Of a DNA stretch of 40,230 bases, positions 19,514-34,728 are shown piece by piece. Under the pieces are notes generated by a model. It searched no databases, was not told the origin of the DNA, and saw nothing but the letters and a program-made list of their open reading frames with translations. The translations under genes and the position numbers were made by a program. This stretch comes from Nitrospirales bacterium (GTDB lineage Bacteria; Nitrospirota; Nitrospiria; Nitrospirales; UBA8639). The stretch's first letter is position 1. Every line of letters begins with the position of its first letter. Where the stretch lies: NCBI GenBank assembly GCA_029261275.1, contig JAJDBR010000097.1, positions 1-40,230 on the forward strand, in the 5' to 3' direction.

Positions 19514-19592
19514 TTCCCATTTGGGGATGGATAGAAGGATTTCCCGATGTTTTTTGTCCCCAGGGGCACCACGAAAAAAAATTCCTTTGCGG

Positions 19593-19608: not shown

Positions 19609-19660
19609 GAAAGAAAATTATACTATGTCGTGTCCCATTTAGCCTGGAAAGGATATGTAA

Positions 19661-20524
19661 ATGAAAATTATGGTTGCGATTGATGGCTCAACCTCTTCCG
19701 GACATGCAATTCAAGCTCTTGCACATCTTGCGCCTCCTGAAGAATTCGTCCTTGTCCACGCCATCAATATTCCCGATATCAATTACGCCCTGATTTCACA
19801 AGACCTTCGCGCTGAAGTTCAGGCCGATATGGAGGCCAAATTACGCAAGGAAGGGGAAGGTATTCTTACGCAAGCGAAGAAAGCGCTCCCTTCTGATTTT
19901 CCCCAGGTCCAAGAGATTCATCAAATTGGCCATCCCGTGGATGTGATTCTTGAATCCGCTCGTTCCTCGAAATCTCATCTCATTATTTTGGGAGCCAGAG
20001 GCCTTAGCTCCTTTAAAGAACTGGTATTAGGTAGCACTTCCCATCGAGTCCTCATGCATGCCCCGTGTTCGACCATGATCATCAAATCCCCCGTTCCCCG
20101 CTTAAAAAAGATCCTCCTACCAATTGAGGGAGAAGAAGACATTTCTGTTGCCTTACAATTTCTAGATCTCCAACCTTTTCGAGATACCGTAGACATTGAC
20201 GTCCTCACGGTCTGGCCTCAACCCCAACTCGCATGGCCCATAACCTTAGGACAATCAAAACTTCTCGAAATGAAGGCCATTGAAGAAGCACAGGCCCACA
20301 TGAAATCGGTGACCGACAGACTCACTCGGATGAACTACTCCTCTCAGGCCAAAGTAGGAATGGGCGACCCAGCCTTTGCCATTCTCGAACAAGCCAAGGC
20401 CTCTCAAGCAGACATCATCCTCATGGGCACACATGGCCGAGGAGGGCTAGCCAGGTTTTTAATAGGAAGCGTGTCGAATTCTGTCCTCCATCAGGCTGAC
20501 TGCCCCGTTTTTATTGTTAAGTAG
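19661..20524 (+). CDS. tandem universal stress protein (UspA family)
   Basis: A 287-residue protein of two UspA domains. The ATP-binding signatures GARGLSSFKELVLGS (first half) and GTHGRGGLARFLIGS (second half) are both complete. The start ATG is preceded by AAGGA at a slightly long spacing. The gene is the first target downstream of the -24/-12 promoter at 19593 and is divergent from the NtrC-type activator gene. It probably supports survival at low energy, perhaps by binding ATP; the exact biochemical role of such proteins is not settled. Confidence 0.93.
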   Translation: MKIMVAIDGSTSSGHAIQALAHLAPPEEFVLVHAINIPDINYALISQDLRAEVQADMEAKLRKEGEGILTQAKKALPSDFPQVQEIHQIGHPVDVILESARSSKSHLIILGARGLSSFKELVLGSTSHRVLMHAPCSTMIIKSPVPRLKKILLPIEGEEDISVALQFLDLQPFRDTVDIDVLTVWPQPQLAWPITLGQSKLLEMKAIEEAQAHMKSVTDRLTRMNYSSQAKVGMGDPAFAILEQAKASQADIILMGTHGRGGLARFLIGSVSNSVLHQADCPVFIVK

Positions 20525-20584
20525 ATGAGCACCCCCAATCTCCCCTACCCCCTTTTCCCCCTATTTTTCACTCCCTACCCCGCA

Positions 20585-20611
20585 CTCCGCACTTCTCACT
20601 TCATTGCGGAG
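20585..20611 (+). terminator. weak hairpin after a USP gene
   Basis: Inverted repeat CTCCGCA-N13-TGCGGAG, 60 bp after the USP stop codon. There is no run of T after it, so intrinsic termination would be inefficient. It may instead be a 3'-end stabilising structure. Confidence 0.25.
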
Positions 20612-20728
20612 ATCTGCTACAGCTCACATTTCGTCGTCCACAGAACTCCACTTTCAAGAATCTTCGAACTAGCTGTGCTCCTGAAGAATTTTACTTAAAA
20701 TCCTTTGTGGGCTGGGGTTCTCTCTTCT

Positions 20729-20744
20729 TGGCATATCCATTGCT
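20729..20744 (+). promoter_or_regulatory. sigma-54 (-24/-12) promoter before the cupredoxin gene
   Basis: TGGCAT-ATCCA-TTGCT. The GG and GC doublets are ten bases apart and only the sixth base differs from TGGCAC. Transcription would start near 20756, about 53 bases before the cupredoxin start. The genes cupredoxin, USP and the hydrogenase operon follow on the same strand with no terminator visible, so this may be the promoter of the whole hydrogenase run. Confidence 0.68.
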
Positions 20745-20808
20745 TTCTCAATTCATAATGTCGAGAACTACCACTGCCACAGGATTGAAAGAAAGGGAGG
20801 ATTGATCT

Positions 20809-21234
20809 ATGCAATTCGATTGGCAACGCAGGATTCAAAGAATAGGGATTGCCACGCTCGGGATTCTTTTGGTTGGAGGAGCACTGCTTTCCAATGCCCA
20901 ATCACAACAGGAAGTGAATGTGACCATTGAAGGCTATAAGTTTCAAACCTCCCAAATGCCTCTTCAACTGCATGCCGACACCATTATCCGTGTGAGAAAT
21001 TTGGACAATGTACGGCATGACTTTGGATCCCAAATGTTTTTGAATATCCTGACGCATGTGGAGAGTCATGGTGTTGTCACCTACGGGAAGGGAGTCGAAG
21101 GCGCGTACGTAGACCCAGGGAAGGAAGTTTCCTTCCGGTTAACGCTTGATCAAATTGGTCGTTTCCAATTTCAATGCTCCATTCATCCAGACATGAAAGG
21201 CGAGATCTTGCTACTCATTGTTGATGCTGTATAG
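20809..21234 (+). CDS. exported cupredoxin (plastocyanin-like copper protein)
   Basis: A 141-residue protein with a signal or anchor segment (residues 11-30) and one cupredoxin domain. The type 1 copper ligands can be assigned: H70 in the segment NVRHDF, then C123, H126 and M129 in QCSIHPDMKG (C-x2-H-x2-M). It should carry electrons, or act as a copper sensor or carrier, in the periplasm. A good ribosome-binding site (GGGAGG) precedes the ATG. It is followed 53 bp later by a USP gene and preceded by a -24/-12 promoter, so it is the first gene of the sigma-54-controlled run that reaches the hydrogenase. Confidence 0.88.
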   Translation: MQFDWQRRIQRIGIATLGILLVGGALLSNAQSQQEVNVTIEGYKFQTSQMPLQLHADTIIRVRNLDNVRHDFGSQMFLNILTHVESHGVVTYGKGVEGAYVDPGKEVSFRLTLDQIGRFQFQCSIHPDMKGEILLLIVDAV

Positions 21235-21287
21235 AGAAGCAACAGGAGAAAGGGAATAGAAACAACTGAAAACCAGAAGGAGTCAAT

Positions 21288-22262
21288 ATGAATAACATTG
21301 TGACACATATTCTCTTCGCCACAGATTTTTCTCCCTGCTCGGCCCCGGCTTTTCGGTACGCAGTGGAATGGGCCAAAGTATTTAATGCTCGATTGACCCT
21401 GTTTCATGGGCTCTCACTTCAACCGGGATTAGATATTGATGCGGGTATTGCCCAACGCTATTTGGATGAGCAACGCAACGTGGCGGAGGAACATTTAAAG
21501 CACCTCCTTGGTGAAGCGACACAACATGTCCCCCAGGCTGCGATAGAAATGCGAACCGGCCTGGCCTCTGCGCAAATTTGTGACGTGACCCGAGAGCACA
21601 GCGCCGATTTGATTATTACCGGCACGCATGGATGGACGGGCTTCAATCGTGTCGTTTTTGGAAGCATCGCTGAGCGAGTCATTCAACGAGCTCCATGTCC
21701 TGTCTTATCGATTCCAGATCGAAGCCCTGAAGAAACCGCAGATCTGCATACCCTGACCATACAACCACGACACATCGTCTTGCCCATAGATTTCTCCGAT
21801 TGTTCCATGGATGCCTACGAATATGGGGTTCAAGTGGCCAAATGGTTTGATGCCTCATTGACCTTAGTGTATGCCATTGAACCGCTGTCCTATAGTTTAG
21901 ACTTTTCCTTGACACACCCACTGGAAGACAAAGCCACCAGGGAAAAAGTTGAACAACGGTTACAAAAACTAACCGCCGTGCTGATCGACCAAGGCCTCAC
22001 CGCGCGATATGAGTTAGTCGATCAACCCTCAATGGAAGCCATTTTGAAAGCCGGAGCCTCGCAGGAAGCTGATTTGCTCGTCATGGGTACGCATGGGCGA
22101 AAAGGACTGCCTCGACTCATCTTAGGCAGCACCACGGCCAAAGTCCTTCAGCACAGCCCCTACCCCATCCTCACCGTCAAAAGTCCAAAATTTGAGGGAG
22201 GACATCACCCAACCACGAAAAGTGAAGGGGCTTCGGCCTCTGCGGTATCAGCAACGACGTGA
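21288..22262 (+). CDS. tandem universal stress protein (UspA family)
   Basis: A 324-residue, two-domain USP, somewhat longer than the other three because of an extended linker and a Ser/Ala-rich tail. The signatures GTHGWTGFNRVVFGS and GTHGRKGLPRLILGS are complete in both halves. AGAAGGAG lies just before the ATG. It sits between the cupredoxin and the hydrogenase beta-subunit gene, which starts 131 bp later on the same strand without an obvious promoter or terminator between them. Co-expression of a USP with a hydrogenase suggests use during energy limitation. Confidence 0.93.
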   Translation: MNNIVTHILFATDFSPCSAPAFRYAVEWAKVFNARLTLFHGLSLQPGLDIDAGIAQRYLDEQRNVAEEHLKHLLGEATQHVPQAAIEMRTGLASAQICDVTREHSADLIITGTHGWTGFNRVVFGSIAERVIQRAPCPVLSIPDRSPEETADLHTLTIQPRHIVLPIDFSDCSMDAYEYGVQVAKWFDASLTLVYAIEPLSYSLDFSLTHPLEDKATREKVEQRLQKLTAVLIDQGLTARYELVDQPSMEAILKAGASQEADLLVMGTHGRKGLPRLILGSTTAKVLQHSPYPILTVKSPKFEGGHHPTTKSEGASASAVSATT

Positions 22263-22393
22263 GGACATGACGAAGCAGAGCTTTTCAGGCTTGTCAGGAA
22301 ACCAAGAGTCTTGAAAAGGAAACCCAATGACAGAGAGCGCCAACTCACAAAAAAACTGATCAGCGTTTGCCCTTTCCGCAGGGCGCCCATCGG

Positions 22394-23536
22394 ATGACAC
22401 TAACAAATATGCCAATGGGTTCAGATTCCTCCCAAACACCCCCTGCACAATTATTGCGCCGGGAGGACTTCCCTCAACTTCTTCACGCCCTCAAGAAGTT
22501 GGGCTACCAAACTTTAGGGCCAGTCGTCTCTCAGGGAGCTATTCAATGGAAAGAAATCGCCACACCTGAAGATTTTCCCATCGGGTGGAAGGATCGGCAA
22601 GAACCCGGAAGCTATAGACTTGTGCCCGATCCCAGCCCCCGTTTTTTCAACATTGTCCATGGCCCCGAATCACTCAAACCCCTGACCTTTGCTCCACGAG
22701 AAACCTTGCTAGTTCTTGATCGTCAAGACCACACGTTTTCAGCTAAAGAGATTCAGCCTGATACCACACCGACCGCTGTATTGGGAGTACGGGCCTGCGA
22801 TCTCGCAGGTCTAGGCATTCAAGATCAAATTTTCCTGCATGGCACTTATCCCGATCCGTACTATCAACAACGACGGGAAAGCCTATTTTTGATCGCAGTC
22901 AATTGCACCAAAGCCCATTCAACCTGCTTTTGCGCGTCAATGGAAACAGGCCCAAAAGCACAGCAAGGAATTGATTTGAGCTTAACGGAAGCTGATGAAG
23001 ACTTTCTGATTGAAGCAGGCAGTGCCAAGGGGCTGAAAGTCTTGAAGCAATTAACGTGCGCCATCGCATCTGCAGAACGAATCAAGGAAGATGAAGAACG
23101 GATGGCAGCCTGTGCCGCAAGCCAGACCCGCAGTTTGACCAAACCCAATTTACCAGCTGCCTTGTATGAAGCCCACGATCATCCGCGTTGGGATCAAGTG
23201 GCAGCCCGCTGTTTATCTTGTACCAATTGTACAATGGTCTGTCCCACGTGCTTTTGCCACGGCGTAGAAGAGACACCCTCACTAAACTTCCAACAATCCG
23301 AACATACCCGAGTGTGGGATTCCTGTTTCACGCCCGATCATGGCTATATCCATGGGAAAAATTTCCGGCCCACCACCAAAGACCGTTATCGTATGTGGCT
23401 CACGCATAAACTCGCCTCATGGATCGATCAGTTCGGCACATCCGGATGTGTCGGCTGCGGCCGCTGCATCACTTGGTGCCCAGTCGGCATCGACCTCACC
23501 GAAGAAGTCCACTCTCTCTGCAAGTCAACCCAATAG
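22394..23536 (+). CDS. hydB: group 3b-type [NiFe]-hydrogenase, iron-sulfur beta subunit
   Basis: A 380-residue electron-transfer subunit resembling HydB of the NADP-linked (sulf)hydrogenases. Cysteine motifs appear in order: CTKAHSTCFC in the middle, then the ferredoxin-type cluster motifs CLSCTNCTMVCP and CVGCGRCITWCP near the C terminus, each suited to a [4Fe-4S] cluster. It passes electrons between the gamma subunit and the delta subunit. The chosen ATG is nine codons inside a longer frame that begins with TTG; neither has a strong ribosome-binding site. The gamma-subunit gene starts 17 bp after its stop. In related proteins the subunit may also reduce sulfur, which the sequence alone cannot show. 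Confidence 0.93.
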   Translation: MTLTNMPMGSDSSQTPPAQLLRREDFPQLLHALKKLGYQTLGPVVSQGAIQWKEIATPEDFPIGWKDRQEPGSYRLVPDPSPRFFNIVHGPESLKPLTFAPRETLLVLDRQDHTFSAKEIQPDTTPTAVLGVRACDLAGLGIQDQIFLHGTYPDPYYQQRRESLFLIAVNCTKAHSTCFCASMETGPKAQQGIDLSLTEADEDFLIEAGSAKGLKVLKQLTCAIASAERIKEDEERMAACAASQTRSLTKPNLPAALYEAHDHPRWDQVAARCLSCTNCTMVCPTCFCHGVEETPSLNFQQSEHTRVWDSCFTPDHGYIHGKNFRPTTKDRYRMWLTHKLASWIDQFGTSGCVGCGRCITWCPVGIDLTEEVHSLCKSTQ

Positions 23537-23553
23537 CTTCCCAATAAACTAGG

Positions 23554-24390
23554 ATGACTCACAATCCTTACCTCATTCATCCAGCCACGATTGTGGAGCG
23601 GAAACAAGAGTCGCCTGATATTGTGACCTATCGGCTGCAACTCACTGATGCTGACCAGCAGAATGCCTTCCAGTTCGAGGCAGGACAATTCAATATGCTC
23701 TATGTGTTTGGTGTGGGGGAAGTCGCGATTTCCATCGTGTCTGATCCGGGCAAACCTGGATTCCTGGACAATACGATTCGAATTGTCGGTCGCGTGACTC
23801 AGGTTTTAGGCAATATGAAAGTCGGTGAGACCCTCGGCATTCGTGGGCCTTTCGGACAGGGATGGCCGATGGAGCAAGCCAAAGGGAAAGATATTTTGAT
23901 CGTTTCCGGGGGGTTGGGCTGCGCCCCTGTGGTTGGCGCCATCGAATACATATTCCGGAGGCGAGAGGAGTATGGCTCACTCACCATTCTCCATGGGGTG
24001 AAGACCCCGCATGACTTACTGTATCGCGAGCGCTACGATACATGGCGCCATCAACCTAATACAAAGGTCCTGCTCACCAGCGACGAACCTGGCAAGACTT
24101 GGCATAGTCATGTGGGCGTCGTCACGGAACTTTTTGACGACCTTCAATTGGAACCTGACAATACTCTGGTCATGATGTGTGGGCCAGAAATTATGATGCG
24201 CGTCGCCTGCAATATGTTGACGCATAAAGGTTTGCGTCCTGATTCGATGTATGTCTCGCTCGAACGGCATATGGAATGTGGCATCGGGCTGTGTGGCTAT
24301 TGTCAGTTGGGGCCGTTCTTCCTCTGCAAAGATGGGCCAGTGATGCGGTTGGACCGAGTGATGCCATTTATGGGGAAAGTCGGGGTGTGA
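23554..24390 (+). CDS. hydG: hydrogenase gamma subunit, FAD/NAD(P)H reductase
   Basis: A 278-residue flavin and pyridine-nucleotide reductase of the ferredoxin-NADP reductase superfamily, like HydG of sulfhydrogenases and PyrK/DHOD-B. The N-terminal beta-barrel binds FAD, the segment ILIVSGGLGCAPV begins the NAD(P) domain, and the C-terminal cysteines in MECGIGLCGYCQLGPFFLC bind a [2Fe-2S] cluster. It exchanges electrons with NAD(P)H. It follows the beta subunit by 17 bp. The gap to the next subunit, delta, is unusually long (89 bp) and contains a hairpin. Confidence 0.94.
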   Translation: MTHNPYLIHPATIVERKQESPDIVTYRLQLTDADQQNAFQFEAGQFNMLYVFGVGEVAISIVSDPGKPGFLDNTIRIVGRVTQVLGNMKVGETLGIRGPFGQGWPMEQAKGKDILIVSGGLGCAPVVGAIEYIFRRREEYGSLTILHGVKTPHDLLYRERYDTWRHQPNTKVLLTSDEPGKTWHSHVGVVTELFDDLQLEPDNTLVMMCGPEIMMRVACNMLTHKGLRPDSMYVSLERHMECGIGLCGYCQLGPFFLCKDGPVMRLDRVMPFMGKVGV

Positions 24391-24420
24391 GACGAACACA
24401 ATTTCTACCTCCCCTAAACC

Positions 24421-24437
24421 CCTCCTTACAAAGGAGG
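24421..24437. repeat. hairpin between gamma and delta hydrogenase genes
   Basis: Perfect inverted repeat CCTCCTT-ACA-AAGGAGG inside a C-rich/G-rich stretch. It resembles the short dispersed repeats seen in many genomes (CTCCTTACAAAGGAGG type). It contains a perfect Shine-Dalgarno-like AAGGAGG but no long gene follows it directly; a three-codon frame (ATG TGC AAC TAA) begins at 24453. It could adjust the ratio of delta and alpha to beta and gamma subunits by processing or partial termination. Confidence 0.45.
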
Positions 24438-24479
24438 AGAACTAATAAGATAATGTGCAACTAATAAAGATTACATCTT

Positions 24480-25313
24480 ATGGTTGAAACACACATTTCT
24501 CCAAACAGAAAACAGCCGCGGGTGGCGGTAGTGAAATTTGCATCCTGTGATGGGTGCCAACTGAGTATTTTGAATTTGGAAGACGATCTTCTCGCATTGG
24601 GAGCGGCCATCGACATCGCATACTTCCCTGAAGCATCCAGCAATATGCAGGAAGGCCCATATGATATTGCGTTCGTAGAAGGTTCGATTACCTGTCCAGA
24701 GGATTTACCCCGCATTCTTGAATTGCGCCAACAGACCACAACGCTGATTACGATTGGAGCCTGTGCTACATCTGGCGGCATCCAAGCCCTCCGGAATTGG
24801 TCGGACATCGCAGCTTTTAAACAAATGGTGTACCCTAACCCTGAATATATCCAGAGTTTGAGTACGTCGACTCCCATCTCTGAACATGTCACGGTGAACT
24901 TTGAACTCTGGGGCTGTCCAATCGACAAGCAGCAACTCCTGCGAGTCATTACCGATTTACTGCAAGAGGTGAAGCCACGTATACCCATACACAGTGTGTG
25001 TTTAGACTGTAAACGGCAAGGCCATGTCTGCGTGTTGGTCGCCAAAGGCCTTCCCTGCCTTGGACCGGTAACTCGCACGGGCTGTGGCGCCATTTGCCCG
25101 AGCATGGGCCGGGATTGTTATGGATGCTTTGGTCCGGCGGAACATGATTCGGTTCATCCACCTGGTGTGCCTCCGAATACAACATCTCTAGCCAACCAGT
25201 TTCATCAGCATTTGCAACTCATCCCCGTGGAGATGGTTCGCCGATTTCGAGGCATTAACGGATCGGTTCAGTCGTTCAGCAAGGAAAGCCATGCCTGGGA
25301 ACCCAAAAAATAG
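24480..25313 (+). CDS. hydD: [NiFe]-hydrogenase small (delta) subunit
   Basis: A 277-residue small subunit. The proximal [4Fe-4S] ligands are C23 and C26 (CDGC), C95 in GACATSGG, and C146 (GCP). Eight further cysteines between 164 and 206 (CLDC, C174, C183, CGAIC, CYGC) can hold the medial and distal clusters. There is no Tat signal, so the enzyme is cytoplasmic. The ATG at 24480 has no ribosome-binding site, and an in-frame stop lies just upstream, so translation may be coupled to or regulated by the hairpin before it. The last 23 bases overlap the large-subunit gene. Confidence 0.95.
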   Translation: MVETHISPNRKQPRVAVVKFASCDGCQLSILNLEDDLLALGAAIDIAYFPEASSNMQEGPYDIAFVEGSITCPEDLPRILELRQQTTTLITIGACATSGGIQALRNWSDIAAFKQMVYPNPEYIQSLSTSTPISEHVTVNFELWGCPIDKQQLLRVITDLLQEVKPRIPIHSVCLDCKRQGHVCVLVAKGLPCLGPVTRTGCGAICPSMGRDCYGCFGPAEHDSVHPPGVPPNTTSLANQFHQHLQLIPVEMVRRFRGINGSVQSFSKESHAWEPKK

Positions 25314-26595
25314 CAGAACAATTAAGATCGACATGATGGCCCGCGTGGAGGGCGAAGGTGCGCTCAATGTGACCGTCAAAGATGAGCAGGTTCAAGATGT
25401 GCAACTTCGTATTTTTGAACCGCCACGATTCTTTGAAGCCTTTCTCCAAGGCCGCCATGTGGACGAAGTCCCCGATATTGTCGCACGTATTTGCGGCATC
25501 TGCCCTGTGGCCTATCAGATGAGCGCCGTGCATGCGTTGGAACCGATTTTCGGCGTGGAGATCCCACCAGCCATTCGCGATCTTCGTCGATTGCTCTATT
25601 GCGGGGAATGGATCGAAAGCCATGTCCTACACATCTATATGCTTCAGGCCCCGGACTTTTTGGGATTCGCCAGCGGTCTCGACATGGCGCGCGTCCATCC
25701 TGATCTTGTCAAGCAAGGACTGCGGCTCAAGAAGGCCGGCAATCACTTAATAACCTTGCTGGGTGGGCGTTCTGTTCATCCTGTATCCGTGAAGATCGGA
25801 GGATTTTCTCAAGTACCCACCAAGGATCAGTTGCAGGGGCTGAAAGACCAATTGCTTTGGGCGAGAGATGCGGCCGTGAAAACCCTTCAATGGGTGACCG
25901 GCTTTGCGTTTGAAGACCCGGAACAGGACTATACCTTCTTGTCACTTCGTGGGCCTTCGGAATACCCCATGAATACCGGCCAGCTAGTCACCAATGAAGG
26001 CCATCATCTGAATGTGCCAGAATTTGAAGAGCATTTCCATGAAGAACAAGTGCCGTACTCCACTGCCCTGCATTGTACCTTTCAGGGAAAGTCTTATTTG
26101 ACAGGGCCCCTGGCTCGCCTGGCTCTGAACCATGATCAACTCTCGCCCTTCACCAAAGAAATCTTTGCAGAAACAGGTTTTTCTCTTCCTTGTACGCGAG
26201 CGTCTATGGGCATCGTCGCCAGATCGGTGGAAGTGCTCTATGCCTTTGATGAAGCCCTTCGCATCATTAAAGAATACGAACCACCCCCATCTCCATCGGT
26301 CCCCGTGATTATTAAAGCTGGCACCGGCTTCGCCGCCACCGAAGCACCACGTGGGGTCTTGTATCACCGCTTCCACGTCAACGATGACGGAACCATTCAT
26401 GTGGCGAAAATCGTCCCGCCTACCTCTCAAAATCAGCGACGGATCGAAGACGATTTGCGAAACATGCTTCCAAACTTTTTGCATCTGAACGATACCGAAG
26501 CAGCCGCCAAGTGCGAACAACATATCCGAAGTTATGACCCGTGCATCTCTTGCGCCACGCACTTTTTAAAATTTACAAGAGAAGAGGTTTCCTGA
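25291..26595 (+). CDS. hydA: [NiFe]-hydrogenase large (alpha) catalytic subunit, group 3b type
   Basis: A 434-residue catalytic subunit. The nickel-iron site ligands are C68 and C71 in RICGICPVAYQ and C418 and C421 in DPCISCATH. The form RICGICP-x-A-Y and the four-gene order beta, gamma, delta, alpha point to the bidirectional NAD(P)-linked group 3b. Maturation requires removal of the tail after H424, which is only ten residues long (FLKFTREEVS), shorter than in most relatives. A good ribosome-binding site (AAGGA) lies inside the end of the small-subunit gene. The enzyme can oxidise H2 or release it from NAD(P)H under excess reductant. Confidence 0.95.
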   Translation: MPGNPKNSRTIKIDMMARVEGEGALNVTVKDEQVQDVQLRIFEPPRFFEAFLQGRHVDEVPDIVARICGICPVAYQMSAVHALEPIFGVEIPPAIRDLRRLLYCGEWIESHVLHIYMLQAPDFLGFASGLDMARVHPDLVKQGLRLKKAGNHLITLLGGRSVHPVSVKIGGFSQVPTKDQLQGLKDQLLWARDAAVKTLQWVTGFAFEDPEQDYTFLSLRGPSEYPMNTGQLVTNEGHHLNVPEFEEHFHEEQVPYSTALHCTFQGKSYLTGPLARLALNHDQLSPFTKEIFAETGFSLPCTRASMGIVARSVEVLYAFDEALRIIKEYEPPPSPSVPVIIKAGTGFAATEAPRGVLYHRFHVNDDGTIHVAKIVPPTSQNQRRIEDDLRNMLPNFLHLNDTEAAAKCEQHIRSYDPCISCATHFLKFTREEVS

Positions 26596-26598
26596 CCG

Positions 26599-27078
26599 AT
26601 GGTCAATATGAAAATTATCGGATTGGGGAACCCTTTTATGGGGGATGATGCCGTTGGCGTGTTAGTGGCCCGTCAACTTCACGTATATTCGTCTGCTCAC
26701 GTTTCCATTCTTGAAGGTGGGTTAGCGGGTCTCAATTTACTTCAGGATATGGAAGGAACAGATACGCTCATTCTCATTGATGCGGTTCATAGCCACGCCA
26801 AAGCCGGGACGATTGTTCGTTTCACCCTCCCACAAGATCTTGAGAAGATTGGAAAGCTGGCTTGGGGCACATCGGCTTCTTCTACCCATTCTTTTGGTCT
26901 GGCAGAAGCACTCACTCTGGCGCATACACTGAAAGCCTTACCTACACACGTCATCCTCTTTGGCATCGAGTTGGGGCATCTTCAAAAAGGACAGCCATTA
27001 TCACCCCCGGTAGCCAAGGCCATGACAAGCGTGGTCAATCGGATTTCCGCTGAAGAATTGAGCGTGTCCAATGCATGA
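26599..27078 (+). CDS. hydrogenase maturation endopeptidase
   Basis: A 159-residue HybD/HycI-like protease. It begins MKIIGLGNPFMGDDAVG, the family sequence that includes the nickel-site Asp, and has further signatures LILIDAVHS and THSFGLAEAL (with a His that could complete the nickel-recognition site). It cuts the C-terminal tail from the large subunit after nickel insertion. It starts three bases after the alpha-subunit stop and overlaps hypA by 8 bp, so the order is fully operon-like. An internal ATG three codons in is an alternative start. Confidence 0.9.
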   Translation: MVNMKIIGLGNPFMGDDAVGVLVARQLHVYSSAHVSILEGGLAGLNLLQDMEGTDTLILIDAVHSHAKAGTIVRFTLPQDLEKIGKLAWGTSASSTHSFGLAEALTLAHTLKALPTHVILFGIELGHLQKGQPLSPPVAKAMTSVVNRISAEELSVSNA

Positions 27079-27433
27079 ACTGCAATTACTGAAGGAGGTC
27101 GTGAGGCAAGTCGAGGAACGGTGCCAGACTCGACCAGGAAACAGCCTATCCCTCATCCGACTAGAAATTGATAGCCACTCCCATTTGGCCAGTCATACGG
27201 CAGAAGAATTACAAGCCACCTTTCATTTCGCAGCTCAGGGCACTCCCGTCGATTCCGCTGATTTGGACATTCATATTCGGGTTTCGACCGGGTCATGCCT
27301 ATCCTGCGAAGCAGTCTTTGATCGTGCTCCCGAGACCTACGGCTGCCCTCACTGTTTTTCAGGAGATATTGCGTGGGAAGATCACCCTGAACTGATCATT
27401 ACCGACATTGAATTCGTGGAGAGCCCACCATGA
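27071..27433 (+). CDS. hypA: hydrogenase nickel-incorporation protein HypA
   Basis: A 120-residue nickel metallochaperone. The N terminus MHE provides the nickel-binding His2. The zinc ribbon has C76-x2-C79 and C92-x2-C95. Length and layout match HypA/HybF. It delivers nickel to the large subunit, usually together with the GTPase HypB, but no hypB gene lies in the window. It overlaps the protease gene upstream and the hypF gene downstream (4 bp, ATGA), so translation is coupled. Confidence 0.93.
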   Translation: MHELQLLKEVVRQVEERCQTRPGNSLSLIRLEIDSHSHLASHTAEELQATFHFAAQGTPVDSADLDIHIRVSTGSCLSCEAVFDRAPETYGCPHCFSGDIAWEDHPELIITDIEFVESPP

Positions 27434-29823
27434 CCTCTGCCGTTCAAGCACAAATTGGATCTAAGCAGCGCGAGCGGATTCAACTGACGATTCGTGGAAC
27501 GGTTCAAGGCATTGGCTTCCGCCCCTTTGTATTTCGTTTGGCTCAAGACTTATCGCTCGGCGGGTGGATCGCGAATACCCCGCAGGGAACGTTGCTTGAA
27601 TTGGAAGGGACCCAAAAGAACCTTCACGCTTTTCAGAAACGGATCACGGCCGAACTTCCTCTGACCGGAAACATCCAGGCCATGACGTCAACCCACATTC
27701 CCGTCATTGGCCAACCGACTTTTTTTATTCATCCCAGCCAAGGGGATGATCAGACGCAATCAGTTATTTCACCAGACCTCGCGACCTGTGAAGGCTGCCT
27801 TCAAGACATGAAGAACCCACAGTCACGCCGGTATCGCTATCCATTCACCACCTGTACCCAATGCGGGCCACGATTCAGTATTGCGCTTCGCCTGCCATAC
27901 GATCGTCTCAACACGACGATGCATCAGTTCCTCTTCTGCGATGAGTGCCAACGGGAATATGATGATCCTTCTGACCGCCGGTTCCATGCGGAAACGATCG
28001 TCTGTCCTTCATGTGGGCCGCAGGTTGAATTATGGAATCACGGAGGGAACCTCCTGGCCCACCGAGAACAGGCCCTTCACGCCGCCTCCAGTATTATAAA
28101 ACAGGGCCAGATACTGGCCGTAAAAGGGTTGGGAGGATTTCAACTATGGGTGAATGCTAAATCATCAGAAGCCGTTCAACGCTTACGCCAACGCAAGATT
28201 CGGCCAACCAAACCATTGGCGGTACTCTTTCATTCCCTGGCATCCGTCGAACAACATTGCTTGGTCTCTACAGATGAGGCTACCCTTTTAACCTCCCCTG
28301 CTGCCCCTATCGTATTAGTCAAAAAAAGAAACACATCCACCTTGGCAGGGGAGGTTTCACCCAATAATCCCCATGTAGGCGCCATGCTTCCCCATACACC
28401 TCTCCATCATCTTTTGATGAATGAGCTCCTCATTCCAGTCATCGCCACGAGTGGGAACCGATCCGAAGAACCCCTCGTCATTGATGAACAGGATGCAGTA
28501 CATCGGCTTCACGGTATTACCGATGCCTTTCTGGTGCATAATCGCCCCATCGTGAGACCCGTTGATGATTCAGTGGTTCAAGTCGTCAACGACAAATGTG
28601 TGATGCGTCGTCGCGCACGCGGGTATGTGCCTACCCCCCTAGCGGTGAAACCAGGTTTTGGCGCTGATCACAGGCTGCCTCAAATCTTGGCTGTCGGCGG
28701 CCACCTCAAAAATACGGTGGCCGTGACCACTGGCGATCAGATTATCGTCAGTCAACACATCGGAGATCTTTCGACTCCTGAAGCCTCAGCTCAATTTGAA
28801 CGAACCATTGCTGATCTGCTGACCTTGTTTCACCTCACACCTCAAGCCATTGCCTGCGACAGCCATCCGGACTATCGCTCATCAAGATTTGCCCATCAGT
28901 TTGGGAAGCAGCACAACATTCCTGTCATGCCAATCCAGCATCACCATGCCCACATCGCCGCATGCCAAGCTGAACATGGATTACAAGGCCCTGTCCTTGG
29001 CGTGGCTTGGGATGGAGCAGGATTTGGGTTAGACGAAACGATGTGGGGCGGAGAGTTTCTTCTTTGCCATGATGCCAAGCTCACACGCCTTGCTCATGTG
29101 AGACCGTTCCGTCTACCGGGTGGAGAGGTGTGCATGCGAAAACCACGTCGGGTAGCACTGGCCTTACTGTATGAGGTTTTCGGTGAGGTCGTGTTTGAAT
29201 GGCATCTTCCGCCACTTCAATCTTTAGGACCAAATATGACACGGTCTTTAGTTGCCGTATTGGACAAAAATGTCAATTGTCCGATCACGACCAGTATCGG
29301 TCGGCTCTTTGATGGGGTGAGTGCGTTATTAGGTCTCTCACAAGTCGTAAGCTTTGAAGGTGAAGCGGCCATGGCTCTTGAATGTTTAGCAGAAAGCGAA
29401 ATGGAGAAAACTCATCCTCAGCCCTATCGCCTTCCCTTAGAGCTTCAGTCAGAATCGGAAGGGCCCTTGGTGGCCGATTGGCGACCATTGATCTCTACCA
29501 TCGTCCGGGACATCTCAGAACAAAAAAGCCCGGCAGCGATAGCATTGAGATTCCATCAGGCACTCGCCATGTTGATAGCTGACGTTGCAGAGCGCGTTCA
29601 GTGCCCTCAGATCGTTCTCTCAGGAGGCGTCTTCCAAAATGCACTACTCCTCAAGCTTTCCGAATCCGAACTCACGAAACGGGGGTTCTCAGTTTATTTT
29701 TCCCAGAAGTTCCCTTGCAACGATGGAGGTCTTGCCTTAGGCCAAGCTATTACCTCTATTACTTCCTTGAATCGGAAAACAGATGATATCGGTAATAAGC
29801 CAACATCTACCATTAATTTTTAA
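27430..29823 (+). CDS. hypF: carbamoyltransferase HypF
   Basis: A 797-residue enzyme that makes the thiocarbamoyl group which becomes the cyanide ligands of the active-site iron. It has all four parts: an acylphosphatase-like domain (residues 10-95, TVQGIGFRPF), two zinc fingers (CEGC/CTQC and CDEC/CPSC), a YrdC-like domain (about 200-390), and a Kae1-like carbamoyltransferase domain with HHHAHIAA and SGGVFQNALLL. It is of full length and no key motif is lost. A hypothetical gene with a HEPN-like motif starts 31 bp after its stop and separates it from hypC. Confidence 0.95.
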   Translation: MTSAVQAQIGSKQRERIQLTIRGTVQGIGFRPFVFRLAQDLSLGGWIANTPQGTLLELEGTQKNLHAFQKRITAELPLTGNIQAMTSTHIPVIGQPTFFIHPSQGDDQTQSVISPDLATCEGCLQDMKNPQSRRYRYPFTTCTQCGPRFSIALRLPYDRLNTTMHQFLFCDECQREYDDPSDRRFHAETIVCPSCGPQVELWNHGGNLLAHREQALHAASSIIKQGQILAVKGLGGFQLWVNAKSSEAVQRLRQRKIRPTKPLAVLFHSLASVEQHCLVSTDEATLLTSPAAPIVLVKKRNTSTLAGEVSPNNPHVGAMLPHTPLHHLLMNELLIPVIATSGNRSEEPLVIDEQDAVHRLHGITDAFLVHNRPIVRPVDDSVVQVVNDKCVMRRRARGYVPTPLAVKPGFGADHRLPQILAVGGHLKNTVAVTTGDQIIVSQHIGDLSTPEASAQFERTIADLLTLFHLTPQAIACDSHPDYRSSRFAHQFGKQHNIPVMPIQHHHAHIAACQAEHGLQGPVLGVAWDGAGFGLDETMWGGEFLLCHDAKLTRLAHVRPFRLPGGEVCMRKPRRVALALLYEVFGEVVFEWHLPPLQSLGPNMTRSLVAVLDKNVNCPITTSIGRLFDGVSALLGLSQVVSFEGEAAMALECLAESEMEKTHPQPYRLPLELQSESEGPLVADWRPLISTIVRDISEQKSPAAIALRFHQALAMLIADVAERVQCPQIVLSGGVFQNALLLKLSESELTKRGFSVYFSQKFPCNDGGLALGQAITSITSLNRKTDDIGNKPTSTINF

Positions 29824-29854
29824 TACTCTTAAGGAACCTTTTAGGAGAAATTCC

Positions 29855-30499
29855 TTGGAATTGGTCCATCTGGTAGAGTCAGCCCGATATCACAAAAGCA
29901 ATTTAATTCATCTAGGCCTAGGGAATGGTCATGCACCATCTGACTTTAACCCAGGGATTGACTGTCCGAATGAAGAAAGAGATCGTTATTGGCAAGTTAT
30001 GGGGATGACCATGGAATTTGAAAGTTTCCTTTTTTCAGGGAAACGCTTTTTAGATGGTGCGTGGCTGTTTTTTCGCCCTAACCTAAAGCAGGAATTGCCC
30101 AAAGTTGATTCCTTAGGTGGCTTTGTGAACGAGTTCAAACAAAACAATAGTTTTTCCAAACTTCCTTATCTAAGTTTTTTGGTTGATTCCTGGCATTCTT
30201 GGGGGAAAGATTTAAGCGACCTTAGAAATTACACTGAACATGAATCACCATTAGGTGGGACAGGGTTTGGGTTTACGCTGCATCAGGAAAATCAGCAGAT
30301 TCACACGTTATGTCTTCCTGAAACTATTTTTGATAAAGATGGGAAAAGAATTCCAAAGAAACGTTTGTCTTATACTAGCAACAAAACAGCTGCCGATTAT
30401 GTAAATTCCCAAATACTCAACATCGATACTACTTTCATTCAACTAATTAATTTTTTCAACGAATCAATTGAAATAATTGGGAAGAAACCTGCGGGCTAA
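29855..30499 (+). CDS. HEPN-like hypothetical protein inserted in the hyp operon
   Basis: A 214-residue soluble protein not belonging to the hydrogenase machinery. I take a TTG at 29855 as start because AGGAG stands eight bases before it; an ATG at 29783 would overlap the end of hypF by 41 bp without a ribosome-binding site. The motif RNYTEH (R124 to H129) has the R-x4-H form typical of HEPN-type RNA-binding and RNase domains. It sits in a helical context (WHSWGKDLSDLRNYTEH), which resembles Cthe_2314-like HEPN proteins. The codon usage looks richer in A and T than in the neighbouring hyp genes, suggesting later arrival. It has no visible antitoxin partner and may be co-expressed with the hyp genes. 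Confidence 0.6.
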   Translation: MELVHLVESARYHKSNLIHLGLGNGHAPSDFNPGIDCPNEERDRYWQVMGMTMEFESFLFSGKRFLDGAWLFFRPNLKQELPKVDSLGGFVNEFKQNNSFSKLPYLSFLVDSWHSWGKDLSDLRNYTEHESPLGGTGFGFTLHQENQQIHTLCLPETIFDKDGKRIPKKRLSYTSNKTAADYVNSQILNIDTTFIQLINFFNESIEIIGKKPAG

Positions 30500-30544
30500 A
30501 ATTAGAGACCCTCGCCACATTTCTACCGTCATAGGCAGAAAAAT

Positions 30545-30769
30545 ATGTGTCTTGCCGTTCCTGGACAAATTCAACGCATTGCAGATGATGAACTCCGCAC
30601 AGGAACGGTTTCGTTTGCTGGAGTGACGAAAGAGGTGTGTTTGGCGTTGGTTCCAGAGGCTTCAATTGGCGATTACGTGATCGTTCATGTGGGCTTTGCT
30701 ATCAGCAAAGTGGATGAGCAAGCGGCTAAAGAATCGTTAGCGTTGATTGAACAACTGCGTTCTGGTTAA
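30545..30769 (+). CDS. hypC: hydrogenase assembly chaperone HypC
   Basis: A 74-residue protein beginning MCLAVPGQI, whose Cys2 binds the iron centre and HypD and which holds the large subunit open for insertion of the Fe(CN)2CO group. Its small OB-fold length is typical. There is no strong ribosome-binding site. It is followed 20 bp later by hypD. Confidence 0.95.
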   Translation: MCLAVPGQIQRIADDELRTGTVSFAGVTKEVCLALVPEASIGDYVIVHVGFAISKVDEQAAKESLALIEQLRSG

Positions 30770-30789
30770 AACAATGAGAGTCCTTCTTC

Positions 30790-31902
30790 ATGAAATACGT
30801 GGATGAATTCAGAGACCCGAAAGCGGTGGAAGCGCTTTCCAGGGAAATCCATCACATCACTCACCATCCCTGGACCATTATGGAAGTCTGCGGCGGCCAA
30901 ACCCATTCCATCGTCCGGTATGGGCTGGATCGGCTGTTGCCCCCCGAGATCACTCTGATCCATGGCCCGGGCTGTCCGGTTTGTGTCACTCCCATTGAAT
31001 TGATTGACACGGCTTGCGAACTTGCGAAGCTTCCCGATGTCATTTTGTGTTCATTCGGAGACATGCTCCGTGTGCCAGGAACCCATGAGGACCTACTCAA
31101 GGTCAAAGCCCAAGGAGGAGATGTTCGCATCGTCTATTCTCCTCTCGACGCCGTCGCCATCGCCCAAGCGAATCCCTCGCACCAGATCGTCATCTTTGCG
31201 GTGGGCTTTGAAACCACAGCCCCGGCTCAGGCCATGGCCATTCTTCAGGCGCAACGAATGGAGCTTCATAATTTTTTCGTCCTTGTGGCTCATGTGCTCG
31301 TCCCTCCTGCCATGGAAGCGCTGCTTTCTTCGCCTGAAAATCGCATACAGGGATTTCTTGCCGCTGGACATGTGTGCACAATAATGGGCTATGACATATA
31401 CCAACCCATCAGCAAAAAGTTTCAGGTACCCATTGTGGTGACCGGATTTGAGCCAGTAGATATTCTGGAAGGTGTGAAGATGGTCGTGCACCAATTGGAG
31501 GAAGGACGCTCTGTCGTGGAAAATCAATATGCTCGATCGGTGCGCCTGGCAGGAAATCTGGATGCGCAAAAAGTTATTGATGAGGTCTTTGAACCCTCTT
31601 CGCGCATTTGGCGAGGAATTGGGAATATCCCCAAAAGCGGCCTCCAACTTCGTCCGGCCTTTGCCCAATTTGATGCTCTCCAACACTTCCACAATCGCAT
31701 TCACCTGACTGACTCCACCACCTCCCCATCATCCGAATGTCAAAGCGGTCGCATTCTTCAAGGCCTTATGAAACCTGCAGACTGCCACGCATTTGGGACT
31801 CGATGTACACCAGATCATCCCCTTGGTGCCCCCATGGTGTCGAGTGAAGGGGCTTGCGCGGCGTATTTTCAGTACCGTCCTTCAAAGGTTGCTCAACTGT
31901 AA
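30790..31902 (+). CDS. hypD: hydrogenase maturation protein HypD
   Basis: A 370-residue [4Fe-4S] protein on which, with HypC, the Fe(CN)2CO group is assembled. The signatures are [20 protein letters not shown] with the conserved Cys, [15 protein letters not shown] and FEPVDILEG. The C-terminal cysteines ([26 protein letters not shown]) bind the cluster. Length and motif order are normal. It lies 3 bp before hypE. Confidence 0.96.
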
Positions 31903-31905
31903 TTC

Positions 31906-32973
31906 ATGTCTCAGAATTATTCCCTCGAACCTCAATGTCCCTTACCGCTCGCGTCGGATGACACCATTCGCCTCGCCCATGGCGGCGGTGGACGTCTCAT
32001 GCAACAACTGATTCATGAAATTTTCCTGAAGGCTTTTTCCAATTCATATTTGAACGCGTTACAAGATAGTGCCGTCCTGCCTGCCCAGGATGGTCGCTTG
32101 GCTATGACAACCGATTCCTATGTGGTCCAACCACTCTTTTTCCCAGGGGGCGACATTGGTAGCCTGGCGGTGCATGGCACGATCAATGACCTTGCCATGA
32201 TGGGAGCGAGCCCACGTTACCTGAGTGCCGGATTTATTCTGGAAGAGGGATTACCGATTGCTACCCTCAAACAGGTCGTATCGTCTATGGCAAAGACTGC
32301 ACAGGATTGTGGAGTTCACATTGTTTGTGGCGACACGAAAGTTGTGGATCGGGGGAAAGGCGACCAGATTTTCATTAATACCACGGGCCTTGGTGTGATT
32401 CCTTCATCAGTCGATATCGGCCCACATCGTCTGACCCCTGGGGATCGGATCATCGTCAGCGGAGACTTGGGCGCACATGGCATGGCCGTGTTAAGCCAGC
32501 GCGAAGGATTAGAATTTTCAGGGGACTTGCGTAGCGATTCCGCACCACTCCATCACGTCGTGACCGACTTGCTTCAGCAAGACATCTCGATTCATTGCAT
32601 GAGAGATTTAACTCGCGGGGGGCTCGCCAGCGCCCTCAATGAACTCGCCACAGCTGTTCAGCGCCCTATGACCATTGAAGAACCACGAATACCGATAAGT
32701 GAACCGGTCCGTGGCGCCTGTGAAATACTCGGGCTGGATCCGCTCTATGTGGCGAATGAAGGGCGATTCGCGATATTTCTTCCACACGAGCACGTGGATG
32801 AGGCACTTTCTATTCTACATCGACATGCCGTTTCACAAGAAGCCACGGATATCGGAGAAATTGGAGTGACTGAATCAACACCACCTCAGGCACTCGTCAC
32901 ACTTCAAACCCAATATGGCACTCACAGGATTCTCGACCTTCTTTCAGGAGAACAACTCCCAAGAATTTGCTAA
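31906..32973 (+). CDS. hypE: hydrogenase maturation protein HypE
   Basis: A 355-residue PurM-like ATPase that dehydrates the thiocarbamoyl group received from HypF to a cyanide. It has the opening GGGGRLMQQLI, the segment NDLAMMGASP, and it ends in PRIC, the C-terminal Cys that carries the group. It is the last gene of the hydrogenase run. A potassium-channel-like gene follows 58 bp later, on the same strand. Confidence 0.96.
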   Translation: MSQNYSLEPQCPLPLASDDTIRLAHGGGGRLMQQLIHEIFLKAFSNSYLNALQDSAVLPAQDGRLAMTTDSYVVQPLFFPGGDIGSLAVHGTINDLAMMGASPRYLSAGFILEEGLPIATLKQVVSSMAKTAQDCGVHIVCGDTKVVDRGKGDQIFINTTGLGVIPSSVDIGPHRLTPGDRIIVSGDLGAHGMAVLSQREGLEFSGDLRSDSAPLHHVVTDLLQQDISIHCMRDLTRGGLASALNELATAVQRPMTIEEPRIPISEPVRGACEILGLDPLYVANEGRFAIFLPHEHVDEALSILHRHAVSQEATDIGEIGVTESTPPQALVTLQTQYGTHRILDLLSGEQLPRIC

Positions 32974-33031
32974 TATTTAAGAAATTTTCTATCGTTGGAT
33001 CAAGTACGCCTCCCACAATTTCACAACATCC

Positions 33032-33466
33032 ATGTTCATTACTCTCCTTGTGACCGCCTTCTTAGTTGCGTTAGCTGTTCTCATCCACTTTGAGGCACTT
33101 CGTTGGTTAACAGACTTTATGCTCTCTCCTCACAGCCGCTTCCGCCTGGCTCTATTGATCTGTATGTTCGGAGCCATAATCGCTCATGTGATCGAAATAT
33201 GGGTCTTTGGATTAGGGTATTATTATTTAACCAAGTCAGGTCAATTCGGTTCGCTGGAGGGTGGCTTTACCCATACCCTGTCTGAATGTGGATACTACTC
33301 CTTTGTGACGTATACCACGTTGGGATTTGGGGACCTGATTCCCAAAGGGCACATTCGATTTCTGACAGGCATGGAAGCCTTAACCGGACTTCTCCTCATC
33401 ACCTGGACCGCCTCATTTATGTATATTCAGATGAAACGAGGGTGGAAAACGAATTCCTCATCTTAA
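33032..33466 (+). CDS. two-TM ion channel (Ion_trans_2-like)
   Basis: A 144-residue membrane protein with helices at about residues 5-22, 33-60 and 108-128. Between the last two lies the pore segment TYTTLGFGD, which resembles the K+ selectivity filter TVGYGD. It would give potassium-type conductance in a small pore-loop subunit without a regulatory domain. The ATG has no strong ribosome-binding site. Its position immediately after hypE may mean co-transcription with the hydrogenase genes, perhaps to balance membrane potential; this is inference. Confidence 0.8.
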   Translation: MFITLLVTAFLVALAVLIHFEALRWLTDFMLSPHSRFRLALLICMFGAIIAHVIEIWVFGLGYYYLTKSGQFGSLEGGFTHTLSECGYYSFVTYTTLGFGDLIPKGHIRFLTGMEALTGLLLITWTASFMYIQMKRGWKTNSSS

Positions 33467-33559
33467 CCAGGGCGGACAGCCATTATTAATTTTGTCATCT
33501 CCGCCAGTCGATAGCGAGGAGCTGTCACTCTTTTGTCATACCTACGCGTTTGTGAGCTT

Positions 33560-33583
33560 GCCCCTGCGGTTATTGGCAGGGGC
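33560..33583. repeat. strong GC-rich hairpin
   Basis: Perfect inverted repeat GCCCCTGC-N8-GCAGGGGC, which can be extended by several more pairs. No T-run follows. It lies between a plus-strand gene and minus-strand genes and may act as a weak bidirectional terminator or a palindromic repeat unit. Confidence 0.5.
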
Positions 33584-33612
33584 AGGTATTCATGAGAACA
33601 AGCCTAAGATAG

Positions 33613-33637
33613 ATTCCCGCTAACAGCAAGCGGGAAT
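33613..33637. repeat. REP-like palindromic element
   Basis: ATTCCCGCT-N7-AGCGGGAAT, a 9-bp perfect stem. Its sequence matches the common dispersed form GATTCCCGC...GCGGGAATGAC found between genes in many bacteria. It stands 30 bp after the previous hairpin. Confidence 0.5.
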
Positions 33638-33674
33638 GACAGCGATAAAGGTAGATTCCTGATCCAAAGATCCT

Positions 33675-33767
33675 TTAATGACAAGGGTCTGTACACCAAA
33701 GGAAAAGATAGAAAAAGACCACCACTCCCAGAGCAATCGCACCAAAGAGATACCATTTCGCGTTCAT
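33675..33767 (-). CDS. very small membrane protein
   Basis: Thirty codons from ATG 33767 to TAA 33675. One hydrophobic helix (YLFGAIALGVVVFFYLFLW) is followed by CTDPCH, a short Cys-His tail that could bind metal or haem. A GAGG lies eleven bases before the ATG. It is downstream of the USP gene on the same strand (94 bp), so both could be in one transcript. Such small anchors accompany oxidases and stress proteins, but no role can be assigned. Confidence 0.4.
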   Translation of the reverse strand: MNAKWYLFGAIALGVVVFFYLFLWCTDPCH

Positions 33768-33861
33768 GAAATTTCCAACCTCTTGGTTTGTTCTGAAATT
33801 CCTCTACCTGACCCACTATTACTGAAGGTGGCTCAATCACACATTTTCTACGGCTTCGGTC

Positions 33862-34728
33862 TTATTCCCGGACTAATAAGATCGAACAGTCCGTATGATG
33901 GACGACCGAATGTGAAACACTCCCTAAGAAAAACCGGCTCACCCCTGATTGACTCTGCGGTCGCATGACTAAAAGATCGGGCTTGGTCTTTTTGACCTCT
34001 TCGCCAATCTTGACCGAAGTGGCTCCTTCGATAGCCAGCCCTTTGGCTTGATGCCCCAGCCGCTCCAACTCTATGCACAGCACCTGTGTAAACTTCTCAG
34101 CATAGCTGACCATTTCTTTGCGAAATTCTTGTGGGATCATCGCCCCCACGGGCCACACCGGATCAACCAAAGGCAACACATGAAGGACCGTAACCGAGCA
34201 AGGTTCTCGAAACGGATTTTTTTTGAAAAAGCTCAGGATCGCCTCCGAATCTTCCTGCCCGTCAATAGGAATGACCAAGTTCTTGATGCTCCGAACGGGT
34301 TGTTTAACCAGAAGAGTCGAGCAAGGAGCATGCGTCATCACCCGATGTGAGACACTTCCAAAGATCTGTTCTCGAATACGTCCTAATCCGCGGGCACCCA
34401 TGACGACCAAGTCGATTTTTTCTTCTTGAGCCGTTTTCAAGATTGATTCGGCCGGAGTGCCCATCTCCAATTGTTTTGACACGGACCCTGGGTGCAGAGG
34501 CAACAGTGACACGGCTTGATCCAAAACCCGCTCCCCTTCTTCCTTCATCGCCTTTTCCACTGTCATAGCTAAATCTTTCGCGACATTGGCCCCCATGGCT
34601 GGATACGGAATACCTGGGACATCGACCACATGCAGCACTTTTAAACTTTCGGCTGTGGTGAGGGCTTCTAACACACGTGTGGCATCCAACGATTGATCCG
34701 ATCCATCTACCGCCAACAGATATTTCAT
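33862..34728 (-). CDS. tandem universal stress protein, second nucleotide site degenerate
   Basis: A 288-residue, two-domain USP. The first domain keeps the ATP signature GARGLGRIREQIFGS. In the second the two glycines of the first half are lost (MRPQSQSGVSRFFLGS), so that half is unlikely to bind ATP well. GGGAG precedes the ATG. It is the fourth tandem USP in the window and shows the highest resemblance to the one at 19661. A -24/-12-like sequence stands about 200 bp upstream. Confidence 0.92.
   Translation of the reverse strand: MKYLLAVDGSDQSLDATRVLEALTTAESLKVLHVVDVPGIPYPAMGANVAKDLAMTVEKAMKEEGERVLDQAVSLLPLHPGSVSKQLEMGTPAESILKTAQEEKIDLVVMGARGLGRIREQIFGSVSHRVMTHAPCSTLLVKQPVRSIKNLVIPIDGQEDSEAILSFFKKNPFREPCSVTVLHVLPLVDPVWPVGAMIPQEFRKEMVSYAEKFTQVLCIELERLGHQAKGLAIEGATSVKIGEEVKKTKPDLLVMRPQSQSGVSRFFLGSVSHSVVHHTDCSILLVRE

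Follow-up and report, generated by a model that had tools for sequence, protein, structure and literature searches.

HoxA/HupR systems control uptake or NAD-reducing hydrogenases, with H2 sensed via a regulatory hydrogenase together with HoxJ/HupT. We analyzed a stretch of 40,230 nucleotides (nt) from a Nitrospirales bacterium (GenBank assembly GCA_029261275.1, contig JAJDBR010000097.1), hereafter the window (C280 of genome G000, which is approximately 90% complete). In it a sigma-54-type -24/-12 element lies ahead of a cupredoxin gene (cup), a universal stress protein gene (USP2) and the genes of a group 3b [NiFe]-hydrogenase. The locus resembles the HoxA/HupR systems in that an NtrC-type response regulator and a sigma-54 promoter stand ahead of hydrogenase genes, and differs from them in that the enzyme belongs to group 3b and that stress genes come first in the operon. 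In the approximately 90% complete genome no regulatory hydrogenase was found; nor was a second full-length [NiFe] large subunit, as only hydA matched PF00374 at both ends and the other two PF00374 matches spanned positions 1-69 only. The unit thus appears to work like the known sigma-54 control of hydrogenases, but identity with HoxA/HupR is not supported.

Group 3b hydrogenases are described as common in nitrifiers and functionally uncharacterised in the accessible part of PMC12342949. Accounts of the group 3b [NiFe] (sulf)hydrogenase in nitrifiers, Nitrospira among them (PMC12342949, PMC8115632, PMC7784846), agree with the window in the hydB-hydG-hydD-hydA genes, the maturation genes and the cytoplasmic NAD(P)-linked type; the available portions of these accounts describe no promoter, regulator or operon of cupredoxin, USP and Hsp20 genes. 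In Nitrospira marina, USPs adjoin clusters whose products increase at low O2, the group 3b hydrogenase being one of the raised proteins. The authors propose USPs as regulators of their neighbours, and sigma-54 is absent as a term from the main text (PMC8115632). The sequence of the window instead suggests a shared sigma-54/NtrC switch, N. marina entering this comparison through its published proteome only. A survey of [NiFe]-hydrogenase neighbourhoods tabulates the Sigma54_activat and Usp families, as separate rows, and these families are therefore not new as hydrogenase neighbours; in its accessible part we found neither the term "group 3b" nor Nitrospira, and nothing like the present operon or promoter (PMC12727194). 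The available text of other papers places sigma-54 regulators beside nxr genes (PMC6606698, PMC7522533), links sigma-54 to flagella (PMC5767232), counts sigma-54 domains (PMC12542776), or treats a group 3b hydrogenase unconnected to a single mention of sigma-54 (PMC7285500). No description of this promoter was found in the literature accessible on sigma-54, RpoN or NtrC together with group 3b or nitrite-oxidiser hydrogenases, a literature covered thinly for subscription journals.

We consider it rather likely that the window carries a stress-and-hydrogenase operon under a sigma-54 promoter, served most likely by the neighbouring activator and read through to the end. The sequence itself shows the sites, how they are conserved and spaced, the order of the genes and the scar of a lost gene; we infer binding, the choice of activator, the signal and read-through to the end as follows. 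RNA polymerase with RpoN would bind at 20729-20744, and an NtrC-type activator in its phosphorylated form, most likely the product of 17828-19219, would bind an operator-like dyad at 20605-20621. The same activator would bind tandem dyads at 19386 and 19420 at the divergent promoter of another universal stress protein gene (USP1), and would open both promoters through DNA looping. The transcript would comprise cup, USP2, hydB-hydG-hydD-hydA, the protease gene and hypA-F-C-D-E, and would probably stop after an ion-channel gene. The adjacent PAS kinase would probably relay the signal, at best guess either low O2 itself or a redox or energy state connected with it. A conserved promoter, an operator and a neighbouring regulator would place this hydrogenase in a stress regulon; in a relative of the nitrite-oxidising Nitrospira, joint switch-on would probably tie a poorly understood hydrogenase to stress or low oxygen. 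Coordinates are collected in Table 1.

Promoter and operator-like dyads

The element upstream of cup, TGGCATATCCATTGCT, matches the consensus at all 11 scored positions, a sigma-54 site being taken as GG-N10-GC at -24/-12 within TGGCAY-N5-TTGCW, and its end at 20744 is followed by 64 nt up to the cupredoxin ATG at 20809. The window holds two 11/11 sites, this one and one at 19593-19608 before USP1, compared to a mean of 0.11 in shuffled sequences. Throughout the genome of the window, TGGCAYRNNNNTTGCW occurs 14 times and its reversal not once; two of these occurrences (L135 and L140) sit before genes that look flagellar by eye. TGGCAYRYCCATTGCT was found 28 times across 23 of the 59 genomes searched, with 18 occurrences (our count) at the locus of the cup/hsp20 operon, and its reversal was found in none of the 59. 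The genome has one rpoN gene (PF04552 match, E 1.3e-58).

Conservation was assessed upstream of the first gene of the operon. In six distinct close loci, 20% of the columns upstream of cup were invariant overall, versus 13 of 16 within the element, which ranked first among 255 sliding segments (tied with the segment shifted by one). The second-ranked block (11 of 16 invariant) was a dyad 124 nt further up. A second clade of 12 genomes, in which the element stands before hsp20, gave the same order, with the element first (14/16) and the dyad second (12/16). At the USP1 promoter (five loci) the -24/-12 element again ranked first (13/16) and the first dyad copy second (10/16).

A broader tally drew on 33 loci with a cup/hsp20 gene, of which 28 (27 genomes and one named record) are referred to as family loci; the remaining five belong to another family and were covered for only about 1.4 kb upstream. 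With a threshold of at least 10/11 consensus positions and at most 450 nt from the first gene, a site was present in 26 of the 28 family loci, 24 at 11/11 and two at 10/11, and the distance from element to start was 72-92 nt except in G020 (161 nt). All 26 loci with a site also had the dyad of 17 bp, 114-137 nt upstream of it, the dyad scores in this tally being partly circular because the seeds were taken by eye from the same promoters, with each genome's own seed omitted. The original prediction that this motif is a real sigma-54-type site is borne out by the full match, its rarity in shuffles and its conservation in relatives, and the element is well supported as a genuine conserved sigma-54-type promoter.

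To search for the dyad, a position weight matrix (PWM) was built from nine seed sites at operon promoters of other genomes only, with no USP1 site among them. On both strands of the window the USP1 dyad at 19420 ranked first and the cup dyad at 20605 second; the three promoter dyads scored 17.3, 17.1, and 14.2, compared to a best score of 11.1 on the reversed window. The two USP1 copies form a direct repeat with a spacing of 34 nt, the same spacing being seen at many promoters of both kinds, and the USP1 gene is divergent from the local NtrC-type gene. The distances of these putative operators upstream, 124 nt for cup and 173/207 nt for USP1, were counted as agreeing with the range of about 80-200 nt used for NtrC-type operators. 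At the strictest setting the window contained two combinations of an 11/11 site with a dyad, compared to none in 200 shuffles. Since the same dyad precedes USP1 (twice) and cup, one activator probably serves both promoters, and the dyad offers a handle for finding further members of the regulon.

Several observations weigh against this picture. Two of the 28 family loci, G023 and G021, had no site within 450 nt (in G021 one of 11/11 lies farther upstream, past a CBS-like gene), and none of the five loci of the other family had one in the approximately 1.4 kb covered. The seeds of the matrix were chosen by eye, its third-ranked match in the window (38075, score 15.1) lies within ftsH, and the cup promoter of the window has one recognisable dyad, not two. 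A strict dyad pattern, which misses the cup dyad of the window, was only weakly enriched genome-wide (4 matches vs. 1 reversed in G000; 21 vs. 7 over five genomes) and yielded little outside the operon locus over those five genomes; the regulon may therefore be small.

Similar sites were noted elsewhere. On the minus strand of the window a sigma-54-like site (7879-7894, 10/11) has a dyad at 8007-8023, 129 nt upstream; this candidate pair shares its strand with the acetate kinase and phosphoketolase genes, though the distance to acetate kinase downstream is 740 nt, and the stretch of G007 taken for comparison contained neither gene. A strong dyad with a 10/11 sigma-54-like site on the opposite strand occurs in L223 (1501-1565, G000) and L224 (711-777, G007). 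The L223 pair precedes a cytochrome c gene (Pfam family) and the L224 pair its look-alike in G007, with the dyad, in an unusual order, between site and gene. Three of 14 hydrogenase loci from other lineages (L038, L044, L214) carry [A/G]GGCATTGCTCTTGCT (10/11) 188-537 nt upstream of hydB and on its strand; among these a dyad score above 13 was seen in L214 only.

Extent of the transcription unit

Every gene from cup through hypE is on the plus strand, with junctions of -41 to 131 nt, and the single-strand run with mostly short or overlapping junctions proposed earlier is thus confirmed. Its end probably lies beyond hypE, the end proposed, and the run would include one gene more, the ion-channel gene (gap 58 nt); hypC also belongs to it. 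A sigma-70 promoter or a strong terminator at 22262-22394, named beforehand as evidence against a common transcript, was looked for on both strands, and no sigma-70-like or terminator-like site was found by scanning or folding. The segment 22263-22410 folded with z 0.76, and 161 of 200 shuffles folded at least as well. The scan is a weak instrument because its site numbers over 18000-34000 did not exceed those in shuffles (8 sigma-70-like sites vs. 17.7 and 16 terminator-like sites vs. 16.4).

Comparison with relatives accounts for the longest of these junctions. In more distant family members, as in the second clade, the element precedes hsp20, usually followed by cup, USP2, a gene of 449 codons (orf449) and hydB. 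The clade of the window is, by this comparison, one that has lost hsp20, and the old promoter therefore now abuts cup. Relatives that seemed to carry cup-USP2 without a sigma-54 site had been misread, the site there preceding hsp20. Between USP2 and hydB, orf449 is absent in the window and in G007, and the gap of 131 nt is, judged by homology, the scar of this lost gene. In L031 and L032, which keep orf449, the gene overlaps the USP2 stop by 4 nt, and 14 and 8 nt, respectively, remain from its end to the hydB ATG; such tight junctions argue for one transcript into hydB. Many relatives conserve this gene (L031, 4760-6109; L032, 1653-3002) at that place, and its protein has no Pfam family above cut-off, only a sub-threshold C-terminal Xre/MbcA/ParS match.

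Whether the transcript continues beyond hydB bears on an alternative that we regard as unlikely, yet to be taken seriously: the sigma-54 promoter would drive only cup and USP2, possibly with hydB, and hydG-hydD-hydA and the hyp genes would have a promoter of their own, as seems to hold for relatives with a detached hydG. Of the 28 family loci, 17 have hydB on the same strand after USP2 or orf449, and in six of these 17 (the window, G007, L031, G025, G031, and G024, the last without cup there) hydG-hydD-hydA follow contiguously. An own promoter at hydG is favoured by six genomes (G001, G003, G009, G013, G016, G018) with an interval of 3.0-7.1 kb from hydB to hydG, in part occupied by genes on the opposite strand, and by three more in which no hydG was found after hydB in the stretch covered (G002, 8.6 kb; G019, 3.8 kb; G027, 5.1 kb). 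It is favoured further by a sigma-54-like TGGCTTTG-type site (10/11) approximately 190-400 nt upstream of hydG in five of the six split genomes (G003, G016, G009, G013, G018; not G001), though no dyad of the cup/USP1 kind was found at the usual distance from these sites. In the window, however, the gap between hydB and hydG is 17 nt, leaving little room for a promoter outside hydB. A start at hydD is disfavoured too, as the sigma-70-like match ahead of it (24425-24454) has a -10 half that is not conserved in L113 or L114 and comes from the scan that gave fewer matches than shuffles. The remaining two of the 17 loci (G015, G017) stop at hydB with their contig. In the other 11 family loci hydB is not intact: the contig ends earlier in five (G004, G008, G010, G011, G012), no hydB was found in the stretch covered of five (G020, G021, G023, G028, G033), and in G030 it is in pieces.

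We therefore conclude from the split genomes that hydG-hydD-hydA can exist without this promoter. Read-through of the operon to hypE is likely in the lineage of the window and not general among relatives, because six loci split after hydB and three more lack hydG nearby. A fusion of two sigma-54 units in the clade of the window was considered and dropped, as the more distant G025, G031, and G024 are already contiguous; their order makes the split look like a later insertion, and the link from promoter to hydG-hydD-hydA looks ancestral but breakable. Of the proposal that the promoter ties the hydrogenase to the local NtrC-type system, the conserved site, the dyad shared with USP1 and with them the link to that system are well supported, and read-through of the whole run is a presumed part that is consistent with the data.

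The stretch after hydB contains other genes in relatives. In L124 (12620-12907), and also in L121, a gene resembling encapsulated ferritin (EncFtn-like) lies directly after hydB on the opposite strand, and three more split genomes have such a gene between hydB and hydG. In L120 (G027, 91% complete) hydB is kept in the operon and hydA was not found at E 1e-60; hydB of G027 may serve without a hydrogenase.

The activator

An orthologue of the local NtrC-type gene was present in 8/8 genomes searched (7/7 other than that of the window) with 69-89% identity, the next-best paralogue reaching at most 49%, and it adjoined USP1 every time. Its frame was intact in 13/13 loci checked; in-frame TGAs listed for the regulators of G018 and G009 proved to lie outside the frame, and both frames are intact at 457 amino acids (aa). 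The textbook motif of the sigma-54 activator loop is GAFTGA, and the loop of this protein reads GSFTDA, which may tell against it as the activator.

It is rather improbable, in our judgement, that a real sigma-54 promoter is served here by an activator encoded elsewhere in the genome. Such an activator could act, as the genome has 22 Sigma54_activat matches, 18 of them strong, and the role of the neighbour is for this reason put forward as presumptive. Against a distant activator stand the recurrence of the cup dyad at the promoter of USP1, a gene divergent from that of the neighbour, and the constant presence of the neighbour's orthologue at this locus. Very improbable is a chance -24/-12 match with sigma-70 or another promoter driving the genes, for although the pattern TGGCACGNNNNTTGCW with up to three mismatches occurs at chance level in the window (64 matches vs. 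58 expected), the element is the most conserved part of the region in two clades, is present in 26/28 family loci, and has 14 exact occurrences vs. 0 reversed. Loose counting was dropped because it stayed at that level, and strict scoring, shuffles and footprints were used in its place.

The signal

We hypothesize that the signal reaches the neighbouring activator, probably, via the adjacent PAS kinase, with low O2, or a redox or energy state tied to it, as our best guess. Among the best 25 of 90 NCBIfam families, there was none whose cut-off the kinase reached. In the PDB its PAS domain is closest to FixL (E 1.7e-14) and to the haem PAS of DosP. The position of the haem-ligand histidine of FixL is His in 12/12 aligned kinases, the window included (16 loci were given, four of which yielded no frame passing the motif filter), and the position which we take to be FixL R220 is Arg in three of the 12 (the window, L113, and L120). 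The likeness to the FixL/DosP sensors thus consists of the best match and the kept histidine, and the differences are that haem binding by the local PAS is a prediction and that the histidine is not unique to it. Among the PAS domains of G007 (30 of 57 PAS_9 matches were taken as loci), others carry the same histidine and one is far nearer to FixL (103.6 vs. 57.2 bits). Because several of these domains score similarly, O2 sensing by haem in the local PAS is a lead only. FixL itself acts via FixJ, not via an NtrC-type protein. The kinase has 404 aa in the window versus 520-713 aa in 11 orthologues, and compared to L113 approximately 250 aa of internal, PAS-containing sequence are absent.

The proteome of N. 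marina at approximately 5.6 uM O2, in which the levels of four USPs and of the group 3b hydrogenase were raised and the hydrogenase was still of low abundance (PMC8115632), provides independent support for low O2 as the signal. A shared switch would in turn offer a mechanism for this joint increase of USPs and hydrogenase. A more specific hypothesis is tentative, and we lean towards doubting it: a relay from a FixL-like haem-PAS kinase to an NtrC-type regulator and sigma-54 would sense O2 in Nitrospira and switch on USPs, Hsp20, a periplasmic copper protein and the group 3b hydrogenase, which would then be a valve for hypoxia or redox stress and not an H2-induced energy enzyme.

Gene content

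Table 1. Features of the window discussed in the text (positions in the 40,230-nt window).
Feature	Position	Strand	Remarks
PAS sensor histidine kinase, 404 aa, candidate partner kinase	16527-17741	-	Pfam PAS, HisKA, HATPase_c
NtrC-type sigma-54 activator with receiver, candidate for both promoters	17828-19219	-	Response_reg, Sigma54_activat, HTH_8
Operator-like dyad, USP1 promoter, first copy	19383-19402 (core 19386-19402)	+	20-nt direct repeat; PWM rank 4 in window
Operator-like dyad, USP1 promoter, second copy	19417-19436 (core 19420-19436)	+	PWM rank 1 in window
Sigma-54-type -24/-12 element of USP1, TGGCACTTCTCTTGCT	19593-19608	+	11/11; most conserved 16-nt segment, 5 loci
Universal stress protein USP1	19661-20524	+	Pfam Usp
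Operator-like dyad, cupredoxin promoter	20605-20621	+	124 nt upstream of -24 element; PWM rank 2 in window
Sigma-54-type -24/-12 element of operon (TGGCAT-ATCCA-TTGCT)	20729-20744	+	11/11 consensus; conserved in relatives
Cupredoxin, probably exported (N-terminus, by eye)	20809-21234	+	Cupredoxin_1; CSIHPDM copper-ligand-like motif
Universal stress protein USP2, two Usp stretches	21288-22262	+	Pfam
Scar of lost 449-aa gene, by homology	22263-22393	+	Homology to 3' end of orf449 in L031, L114
hydB, group 3b hydrogenase beta subunit	22394-23536	+	Fer4_22; ShyB/HydB-like below cut-off
hydG, FAD/NAD gamma subunit	23554-24390	+	Domain and family matches
hydD, delta (small) subunit	24480-25313	+	Domain and family matches
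hydA, [NiFe] large subunit	25291-26595	+	RICGIC and DPCISC
Hydrogenase maturation protease	26599-27078	+	TIGR00072 above cut-off
hypA	27071-27433	+	Domain match
hypF	27430-29823	+	Domain match
Open reading frame of 238 aa, no known family, overlaps hypF end	29783-30499	+	Not at same place in L113, L031, L114
hypC	30545-30769	+	HupF_HypC
hypD	30790-31902	+	Domain match
hypE	31906-32973	+	Domain match
Ion-channel gene, probable last gene of unit	33032-33466	+	Ion_trans_2; after hypE in L031 and in L237 (G007)
Weak terminator-like stem-loop after ion-channel gene	33510-33526	+	Such sites no commoner than in shuffles

The assignment of the hydrogenase to group 3b follows from the presence of the four subunits hydB, hydG, hydD, and hydA and of both CxxC motifs of the large subunit; the NCBIfam sulfhydrogenase models match below their cut-offs. 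Matches of the cupredoxin in the PDB were weak. The closest named relatives of the hydrogenase are from Nitrospirae, Nitrospirota, Nitrospiria, and Nitrospira sp. The start of hydB may lie at 22409 or 22415, and relatives begin near 22415.

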